Below, piece by piece: positions 2,105 to 8,753 of a DNA stretch of 21,592 nt. How positions within the stretch are numbered: position 1 is the first letter of the stretch; every line of letters starts with the position of its first letter. The notes below the pieces were generated by a model. That model saw only the letters and a program-made list of their open reading frames with translations. It was not told where the DNA came from and did not search any database. The position numbers and the translations under genes were made by a program. Source of the stretch: a virus; IMG/VR virus record IMGVR_UViG_3300042924_000288, positions 1-21,592 of that record, one strand, 5' to 3'.

Positions 2105-2135
2105 CTCCTCAGCCTCACAAGGGCTGGGGAGTTTT
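2105..2135 (+). terminator. Rho-independent terminator after capsid gene
   Basis: CTCCTCAGCC (2105-2114) pairs with GGCTGGGGAG (2122-2131) to give a 10-bp GC-rich stem with one T-G wobble and a 7-base loop, followed by TTTT (2132-2135). It lies 20 bases after the capsid stop codon. This is seen directly. That it terminates transcription, fully or partly, is inferred. The fibre genes downstream show no obvious promoter of their own, so partial read-through is likely. Confidence 0.85.
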
Positions 2136-2184: not shown

Positions 2185-3252
2185 ATGGCTTTGTATCGAG
2201 GTCCCGGTGGTTCAGGTGACGCTACCAATGACGCTAATAATCAGGCTGTAGTAGCTCAGACTGCTGCTACAAACGCTGCTGCGTCTGCATCAACTGCTGC
2301 AGGTTCTGCTTCTGCTGCTGGTGGCTCTGCTGCTGCAGCTGCTTCTTCCGCTGCAAATGCTGCATCGAATGCTACTGATGCACAGTCTTATGCTACCAAC
2401 GCCAATACTTACGCAAGTAACGCAGCTTCTTCAGCTAGTGCTGCGTCTACCTCAGCAACCAATGCCGCTGCTTCAGCTGCTGCTGCACTAGCTAGCGAAA
2501 CCGCTTCAGTTAACTTAGCAACTAACTTTGCTGTTACTGCTAACACATTATCTGCTGGCTCTAGCGCCACTGCTTCATACAACTCTGGTACTTACACTTT
2601 AACTCTTGGAGTTCCTACTGGTGCAACTGGCGCTACAGGTTCAACAGGAGCTACAGGGGCCACAGGTGCTACTGGTGCAACAGGCCCTGCAGGACCAGCT
2701 AACAGCTTATCAATTGGTACAGTTACCACTGGCTCTGTAGGTTCTAGCGCAGCTGCTACGATTACTGGCACTGCTCCTACTCAGACTCTAAGCTTAACTA
2801 TCCCAGTAGGTGCAACAGGAGCTACTGGCTCTACAGGATCAACAGGGGCTGCTGGAGCTGCTGCCACGATTGCTGTAGGCACAGTAACTACTGGAGCTGC
2901 AGGTTCCTCTGCTACTGTAACGAATGCAGGAACTAGCTCTGCTGCTATCTTTGACTTCAGTATTCCTACTGGAGCAACGGGTGCTACTGGTGCTACCGGG
3001 GCAACTGGCGCAACAGGAGCTACTGGCGCAACTGGCCCAACTGGACCCGGAGTAGTTGTTGGCGGCACTGCTGGACAGTATCTAAAGAAGGTATCTAGCA
3101 CAGACTATGATACTACTTGGGAAACATTTACTACTTCTACGGTAGGACTAGGTAACGTAGAGAATACTGCATTATCAACTTGGGCTGGTTCATCTAATAT
3201 TACAACTGTAGGCACTGTAGTAACTGGAACAATTTCTGGAGGTACGTACTAA
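2185..3252 (+). CDS. Collagen-like phage fibre protein
   Basis: A 355-residue probable trimeric fibre. Domains in order: a short head ([13 protein letters not shown]) common in phage fibre proteins; an Ala/Ser/Asn/Thr repeat region (about 20-110) of the coiled fibre-shaft type; then three copies of a short beta module, each followed by collagen-type Gly-X-Y triplets (about 146-172, 209-227 and 263-289, mostly GAT); and a C-terminal segment with [12 protein letters not shown], common at fibre ends. Collagen-like blocks in phage proteins form triple helices. The start is ATG with AAAGGA at 2173-2178. The stop directly abuts the ATG of the next fibre gene, so the two are probably cotranslated. 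The last residues (GTISGGTY) recur at the end of the 71-residue protein at 10361-10576. The most likely role is a receptor-binding or capsid-decorating fibre. Confidence 0.82.
2620..3051 (+). repeat. Collagen Gly-X-Y triplet blocks (three)
   Basis: Three runs of GGN-CNN-ACN-type codons at 2620-2700, 2809-2865 and 2971-3051 encode GAT, GST, GPA and GPT triplets. Each run is preceded by a related beta segment (for example [12 protein letters not shown] and [12 protein letters not shown]) that ends in L-x-[VI]-P-x before the first Gly. The DNA repeats are imperfect, with synonymous codon changes, which would limit slippage. The antisense strand gives an open frame of PVA repeats that is only a shadow. 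Confidence 0.85.
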
Positions 3253-7565: not shown

Positions 7566-7795
7566 AGAAAGACCCACAGCAATCGCTGAAGGACTGGACA
7601 GCCCAGAAGTGGAGAACCTCTGATGGTAAAGCCAGTAAAGGTAAGAAGCGTTACCTACCAGATGCAGCTTGGGATGCTCTGTCACCTGCAGAGAAAGCAG
7701 CAACTAACAAGGCTAAGGCACAGGGCAACAAGGCTGGCAAGCAGTTTGTAAAGCAACCTAAGAAGATAGCTAAGAAGACAGCGGGGTACAGATGA
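7562..7795 (+). CDS. 77-residue basic phage protein
   Basis: Contains SLKDWTAQKWRTSDGK, RYLPDAAWDALSPAEKAATN and GKQFVKQPKKIAKKTAGYR. The WT-x-QKWRT opening and the KQFVKQPKKIAKKT end are recurrent in small basic proteins of T4-like and podophages. The protein is highly basic and has no membrane span. It is translationally coupled by ATGA overlaps to the genes on both sides. The QPKKIAKK tail is typical of proteins that bind nucleic acid or acidic partners; its actual role is unknown. Confidence 0.7.
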   Translation: MKKDPQQSLKDWTAQKWRTSDGKASKGKKRYLPDAAWDALSPAEKAATNKAKAQGNKAGKQFVKQPKKIAKKTAGYR

Positions 7796-8070
7796 AAGAC
7801 TCAAGACTAACTAGGGCTGGCGTAGCAGGCTACAATAAGCCAAAGCGCACACCTAGCCACCCAACCAAGTCTCATGTGGTAGTAGCCAAGGAAGGCGATC
7901 AGGTTAAGACTATCAGGTTTGGACAACAAGGAGTCTCAGGTTCTCCTAAGAAGGCTGGAGAGTCAGAGTCATACCGTAAGCGCCGTGAGTCTTTTAAGTC
8001 TAGACACGCCCAGAATATAGCCAAAGGTAAGATGTCTGCTGCATATTGGGCAGATAAAGTTAAATGGTAG
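7792..8070 (+). CDS. 92-residue basic phage protein
   Basis: Contains SHVVVAKEGDQVKTIRFGQQ, then SYRKRRESFKSRHAQNIAKG, then MSAAYWADKVKW. The order RFGQQG, then R-K-R-R-x-S-F-K-x-R-H, then S-x-x-Y-W is a known arrangement in small phage proteins of unknown function. It resembles, at the level of layout, DUF6321-type proteins, where the His or Cys could bind metal; only one His (in SRHAQ) is present in that part here. It overlaps the previous gene by ATGA. The last gene of the basic cassette, it ends at TAG 8068-8070, directly before the -35 hexamer of the next promoter. Confidence 0.68.
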   Translation: MKDSRLTRAGVAGYNKPKRTPSHPTKSHVVVAKEGDQVKTIRFGQQGVSGSPKKAGESESYRKRRESFKSRHAQNIAKGKMSAAYWADKVKW

Positions 8071-8099
8071 TTGACAACTACTAATTTCTATGGTATAAT
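8071..8099 (+). promoter_or_regulatory. Perfect consensus sigma70 promoter
   Basis: TTGACA (8071-8076), a 17-base spacer (8077-8093) and TATAAT (8094-8099) match the sigma70 consensus at all 12 positions. The bases TGG just before TATAAT add an extended -10 (TGn). Transcription would start about seven bases after the -10, at or next to the A of the ATG at 8106, so the mRNA of the adaptor gene would have essentially no leader. It opens the tail/ejection block. It is the best promoter match I noticed in the window. Confidence 0.85.
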
Positions 8100-8105
8100 A
8101 CTACT

Positions 8106-8753
8106 ATGACTTATTTACAATTAATTAATGATGTGCTAGTCCGTCTACGTGAGAACGAGGTAGGCACTGTGTCACAGACAGCTTACGCTAAAATGATTGG
8201 TAAGTTTGTCAACGACATTAAGCGTGAGGTAGAAGACGCTTATGACTGGAATGCCTTGACAGATACCTTGACTGCTGCAACTACAGCTAATTTGTTTAAC
8301 TACGTCCTTACTGGCTCTGGGGTACGGTTTCGTGTCCTAAACGTAATTAACGATACTAGCGACTGGTTTATGGAGGTAGCTCCTAGAGCCTACTTTGACC
8401 AGCAATTCTTGATTAATAATGCTCAGGCAGGTCAGCCTTTGTACTATAACTTTAATGGCGTAGACTCCAATGGGGATACTCAGGTAGATATATTTCCTAA
8501 ACCTGATGGAGTTTATAATCTACGATTTAATATTATCAAACCTCAGGCTGCTCTGTCTTTGGCTACAGACATAATTAAGGTTCCTTCGGAGCCTGTAATC
8601 TTTGGTGCTTATGCTAAAGCCTTAGCAGAGCGTGGCGAAGACATGGGACAGAATAGCTCAGAAGCTTATGCTTTATATAAGAAATCCTTAGCTGATCATG
8701 TAGCTATTGAGTCTAGTCATTATCCTGATGAATCTATCTGGAATTTAACATAA
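8106..8753 (+). CDS. Head-tail adaptor (T7 gp11/P22 gp4-like)
   Basis: A 215-residue protein starting MTYLQLINDVLVRLRENEV, the usual N-terminus of podophage adaptors, followed by a helical section to about 50 (DIKREVEDAYDWNAL), then beta-rich segments (FRVLNVINDT, LYYNFNGVDSNGDTQVDIFP, YNLRFNIIKP) and C-terminal helices (AYAKALAERGEDMGQNSSEA). This helix-beta-helix layout and the length fit tail tubular protein A. It would form the ring between portal and nozzle. No Shine-Dalgarno site precedes the ATG, and the promoter -10 ends only six bases before it. Translation is probably leaderless. The conserved first residues argue against a downstream start. The nozzle gene follows without a gap. 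Confidence 0.78.
   Translation: MTYLQLINDVLVRLRENEVGTVSQTAYAKMIGKFVNDIKREVEDAYDWNALTDTLTAATTANLFNYVLTGSGVRFRVLNVINDTSDWFMEVAPRAYFDQQFLINNAQAGQPLYYNFNGVDSNGDTQVDIFPKPDGVYNLRFNIIKPQAALSLATDIIKVPSEPVIFGAYAKALAERGEDMGQNSSEAYALYKKSLADHVAIESSHYPDESIWNLT

Follow-up and report, generated by a model that had tools for sequence, protein, structure and literature searches.

The window, a 21,592-nt stretch of DNA from a freshwater phage, carries a head-tail adaptor gene whose start codon (ATG, 8106-8108) is separated from the upstream stop codon (8068-8070) by 35 bp, and this gap is filled by a sequence matching the sigma70 consensus (Table 1). The adaptor ORF aligns to its Pfam family from residue 1, so both the start codon at 8106 and the name "adaptor" hold, and translation cannot begin further upstream because of an in-frame TAA at 8082. 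The next gene begins with a GTG that abuts the adaptor stop codon and has no Shine-Dalgarno site; it is likely to be translationally coupled to the adaptor. The predicted terminator that follows the major capsid gene is identical in the relative L098 and would mark off the capsid transcription unit from the tail genes beyond it. No terminator was predicted on the plus strand between 7792 and 8106.

The gene at 2185-3252 (plus strand) encodes a tail-fibre-like protein whose homologue in the related genome G001 has collagen-like Gly-x-y repeats. Rfam matches in the window (isrG, mir-880) were far below gathering scores and were rejected; the weak isrG matches fall within this gene and are probably composition artefacts.

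Table 1 Features of the adaptor locus and its neighbours in the window.
Feature	Position	Strand	Basis
Upstream gene, 92 aa, stop codon directly before the -35	7792..8070	+	phrog_7595
-35 element TTGACA (6/6)	8071..8076	+	read directly
17-bp spacer, ending in extended -10 TGG (8091-8093)	8077..8093	+	read directly
-10 element TATAAT (6/6)	8094..8099	+	read directly
6-bp discriminator ACTACT; predicted +1 at 8106 (A of ATG)	8100..8105	+	+7 modal start rule, PMC5730371
Head-tail adaptor gene, 215 aa, predicted leaderless	8106..8753	+	PF24175 SU10_adaptor match
Next operon gene, 535 aa	8754..10361	+	best PHROG matches phrog_5107 and head closure phrog_578
Predicted intrinsic terminator after the major capsid gene	2105..2131	+	11-bp stem, 7 G-C pairs, TTTT tail

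A consensus promoter sequence and no ribosome site before the adaptor

The first-pass annotation had described a match to the sigma70 consensus at all 12 positions, with a 17-base spacer and a TGn extension, ending six bases before ATG 8106, and direct reading of 8071-8099 bore out each of these elements, the extension being TGG. This was the sole 12/12 site in the window. TTGACA-17-TATAAT was expected 0.0035 times per window on both strands under a first-order Markov model, and the TG-extended form occurred in none of 2000 simulated windows. Weaker promoter-like sites (at least 9/12) were present at chance frequency (32 found versus 31.5 expected from shuffles).

The same annotation had reported that no ribosome site precedes the ATG. 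We likewise found no Shine-Dalgarno motif before 8106, and the best anti-SD pairing was -2.8 kcal/mol, compared with about -5 to -10 kcal/mol for most genes in the window. Its contrast between the adaptor and the rest of the phage was borne out with one nuance: a ribosome site is missing from several other genes as well. Most of the 31 gene starts in the window have a Shine-Dalgarno site, and the majority of the remainder overlap or adjoin the gene before them; the adaptor stands apart in combining the absence of a Shine-Dalgarno site with a 35-bp gap. The predicted message shows no excess folding stability over shuffled sequence in its first 60 nt.

The promoter core is conserved over diverged flanks

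Several hundred IMG/VR loci with related adaptors were found and the best of those were fetched for comparison. In L008-L012, whose adaptors are 77-79% identical to that of the window, all 14 core bases (-35, TG and -10) are the same, while the spacer (12-13 of 15 bases identical) and the discriminator (ATTGTT, with its length of 6 unchanged) have changed. Across the four-fold degenerate sites of these gene pairs agreement is only about 50%, and 14/14 core identity would arise by drift with P of about 1e-4. L013 (73%), L191 and the distant L197 and L198 keep 12-14 of the 14 core bases, placed 5-6 bp from the ATG. Across 33 non-redundant relatives with a 17-bp spacer TTGAC is invariant, in a comparison where a 5/6 match was required for inclusion and where matches to the TG and the hexamers had partly guided the selection. 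A terminator or operator reading of 8071-8099 was not preferred, the invariant columns being the -35, TG and -10.

The relatives with a window-type adaptor are all uncultured contigs. A tblastn search with the adaptor against 50,697 phage records gave no match, and the cultured relatives found by DNA share only the small genes upstream, which leaves the clade with no isolate or host tied to it. Naming a host from 84,980 bacterial and archaeal genomes was also attempted and abandoned, as the two distant MAG matches (47% and 43%) were insufficient.

The same module stands before other operons

We scanned the records of 21 relatives for the module TTGACW-N14-TGN-TATAAT, using the reversed pattern as control, and obtained 48 matches against 0 for the control, or about three per genome (G001 seems to hold two capsid-region versions, and these counts lean on the other records). 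The usual three positions are upstream of the terminase region, between the portal gene and the small pre-scaffold gene (the capsid-operon copy), and upstream of the adaptor; a few copies lie on the leftward, early side. Clades without an adaptor promoter (G017-G021) retain the module at the other sites. Although the capsid-operon and terminase promoters share the module with the adaptor promoter, which abuts its ATG, they have leaders: about 26-48 nt at the capsid operon, with a Shine-Dalgarno site ahead of the first gene in the majority, and at most about 100 nt at the terminase, in both cases where the next gene was identified. A T7-type RNA polymerase (PF00940) was absent from all 21 relatives (21/21), in a search whose T7 positive control scored E = 1e-109 and in which the window counts as a part-genome. 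The enzyme is then likely to be the host RNA polymerase, which would transcribe the module. Given the predicted terminator at the end of the capsid unit, a further promoter in front of the adaptor-tail genes makes sense.

The capsid-operon leader itself comes in different forms. In L098 (8642-8720) and its equivalents in L407, L410, L412, L422 and L430, the leader behind the promoter is conserved and includes both a GTTGTAGAAATACAAC hairpin and a Shine-Dalgarno site, and L406, L418 and L420 have a different leader that contains CTCCTTGTCAAGGAAAAAGAG. G001 (46,360 bp; L096 and L098) has two capsid regions separated by about 37 kb, one matching the window at 95% identity and the other at 81%, and appears to be an over-assembled or chimeric contig.

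Conservation and the sister promoters in the same phages together give strong support to the promoter proposed in the first-pass annotation, whose suggested comparison with related phages found the core and its 6-bp distance to the ATG kept at 77-79% adaptor identity. The element at 8071-8099 is very likely a genuine promoter.

Predicted start on the first base of the adaptor

Bacterial RNA polymerase most often starts at +7 from the -10 element, and at a model promoter positions +6 to +9 were used at roughly 3, 70, 23 and 4% (PMC5730371). At the window promoter +7 is the A of the ATG and +8 is the T. The gene has the hallmarks of a leaderless gene, in that the -10 ends 6 bp before the start, no Shine-Dalgarno site is present and the AUG has no alternative start upstream. 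The adaptor transcript in the window phage is thus likely to be leaderless, as judged from sequence.

The spacing varies among relatives, such that a 5-bp spacing would put the modal +7 at the U of AUG and require a start at +6, and at 8 bp the message would carry a 2-nt leader. On the minus strand of the window, an 11/12 site at 19580-19552 (GTGACA-17-TATAAT with TG) ends its -10 2 bp before the ATG of a conserved gene (19549-19385, minus strand; 54 aa) upstream of ribonucleotide reductase. It was rejected as a second leaderless promoter because transcription would begin within the gene and because the -35, or the entire equivalent site, is missing from several relatives; some retain the extended -10 and a 1-2 bp spacing without the -35.

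Spacing and ribosome sites across the adaptor family

The best of the several hundred loci gave 182 distinct adaptor upstream regions, 85 of them with a recognisable promoter. An intact TATAAT was present in 45 distinct promoters, among which no TATAAT-ATG distance of 12-19 bp occurred. At 5-8 bp from the ATG (25 of the 45), all 25 regions were without a Shine-Dalgarno site. At 10-11 bp (11 of the 45), a weak AGG or AGGA was found that would be off the RNA, and at 20-24 bp (9 of the 45) all 9 regions have AGGA or AAGGA on the RNA. In 39 of 40 promoters with a variant -10 (TAGGAT, TAAACT, TAGACT and others), a Shine-Dalgarno-like site overlaps the -10 or comes immediately after it, where it can serve only read-through RNA. 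Where a promoter is missing, the ATG overlaps or abuts the upstream stop codon in 87 of 97 regions.

In the arrangement TTGACA-17-TAGGAT followed after 5 or 6 bp by the ATG, the AGGA that forms part of the -10 doubles as a Shine-Dalgarno site, lying 6-7 bp upstream of the ATG, so that TAGGAT is possibly a composite DNA/RNA element (carried by L133, L145, L147-L150, L169, L170, L173, L174, L176, L192, L237, L243 and L245-L247).

Mapped on a tree of 168 proteins, the leaderless state in its strong form changes 7 times, at least 4 of them across well-supported branches. Considering TATAAT rows only, there are 2 independent contrasts of short versus long spacing, both in the expected direction (p = 0.5). 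The association between short spacing and loss of the Shine-Dalgarno site is clean but phylogenetically shallow, with few independent events. Leaderlessness is a lineage-specific state, since some relatives have the promoter 20-24 bp away with a Shine-Dalgarno site and others 10-11 bp away, and an ordinary leader is found in other lineages. The leaderless reading of the first-pass annotation is accordingly well supported for the clade, where +7 is the A, the spacing is kept and close TATAAT relatives have no ribosome site, but it does not extend family-wide. The annotation had named related phages with another distance and a normal ribosome site as evidence against its reading; such phages occur in part of the wider family, as the 9 sequences at 20-24 bp.

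A model for adaptor expression and its alternatives

We consider it probable that a host sigma70 extended -10 promoter yields a transcript beginning at AUG 8106 that is translated as a leaderless message, with the next gene coupled to it. The element at 8071-8099 would be one of about three module copies driving late operons and, lying past the predicted terminator of the capsid unit, would begin transcription afresh for the adaptor and the tail genes that follow. With a -10 that stops 6 bp short of the ATG, the A of the start codon is where host RNA polymerase would most likely start, the ribosome would bind the 5'-terminal AUG directly, and the gene starting at GTG 8754 would be read by coupling to adaptor translation. 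We infer the start position, the leaderless translation and the lateness, this last from gene content.

It is exceedingly improbable that the element arose by chance in AT-rich intergenic DNA and does not act as a promoter. The chance frequency of weaker promoter-like sites in the window would fit such an origin, but the core is kept over diverged flanks, hardly any match was expected, and the identical module stands at two other late operons in most relatives, where the reversed pattern occurs in none. A genuine promoter could still start transcription a few bases off, giving a leader of 1-3 nt or losing the A of the AUG and making the mRNA near-leaderless or unproductive for the adaptor. The spread of start usage over +6 to +9 and the common spacings of 5, 8, 10 or 11 bp in relatives point that way; the coincidence of +7 with the A and +8 with the T at the window promoter argues against it, and we regard this outcome as very unlikely.

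As read-through RNA from upstream also crosses the adaptor gene, the protein need not come mainly from the leaderless mRNA. The promoter might then serve to boost the downstream tail and internal-protein genes, with the adaptor made mainly from read-through mRNA by reinitiation after 7792-8070 or by 70S scanning. This fits the lack of a predicted terminator in the interval, the variant -10 relatives with a Shine-Dalgarno site useful only on read-through RNA, and the promoterless relatives that rely on overlap with the upstream gene. In the window clade, however, the read-through RNA offers no ribosome site, the 35-nt gap from the upstream stop exceeds the overlaps used elsewhere, and the absence of a ribosome site at GTG 8754 means that the new transcript needs a translated adaptor; on balance we think this arrangement unlikely. 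Because the read-through RNA has no ribosome site, adaptor output may depend on the local promoter. Taken to its extreme, this would be a transcript-specific switch, in which only fresh leaderless mRNA is translated at the adaptor, promoter firing sets the output and changes in ribosomes or initiation factors could tune it, relatives having converted the promoter to the TAGGAT composite or to a leadered form. We hold such a switch to be distinctly doubtful. The preferred reading remains a leaderless adaptor message from the host-type promoter.

Comparison with known leaderless messages

The lambda cI gene is a lysogeny regulator transcribed from an activated, non-consensus promoter, whereas the adaptor is a structural gene with a 12/12 extended -10 promoter. 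In other respects cI transcribed from PRM resembles what is proposed here, with a host sigma70 promoter, a start that coincides with the AUG and no Shine-Dalgarno site. It is cited as a model leaderless mRNA (PMC9031893), and lambda is where such messages were discovered (PMC3160421). In the telomere phage PY54, RACE identified for cI and for cro one mRNA species each, beginning at the AUG (PMC4488713). Both have strong promoters immediately before the start codon, like the adaptor; unlike it, they are regulatory genes of a temperate-phage immunity region with no late-operon context.

Leaderless genes of the TA-led and Deinococcus-Thermus kind often have no recognisable -35 element. They are cellular, whereas the adaptor is a phage gene with a full -35 and an extended -10, but the geometry matches: the adaptor box begins 12 bp from the ATG and stops 6 bp short of it, with no Shine-Dalgarno site. 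In TA-led genes a TANNNT box sits about 12 bp ahead of the start codon (Zheng 2011; PMC3160421), and in Deinococcus the -10 box lies about 6-7 bp before the ORF (PMC12340547).

The leaderless messages documented for phages in the literature searched are those of regulators (lambda cI, PY54 cI and cro). Within its partial coverage, this open literature contained no leaderless late structural phage gene and one passing remark that phage transcripts are often leaderless (PMC5312081). If true, a conserved leaderless late structural operon would mean that phages use the leaderless route for morphogenesis genes too. The clade also offers a natural series at one gene, from leaderless through near-leaderless and leadered to promoterless with overlap, so that how and why leaders are gained and lost can be asked. 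Messages that lack a leader because they start next to a -10 box form an established class, to which the adaptor likely adds an example in an unusual place, a late structural gene of an uncultured clade.
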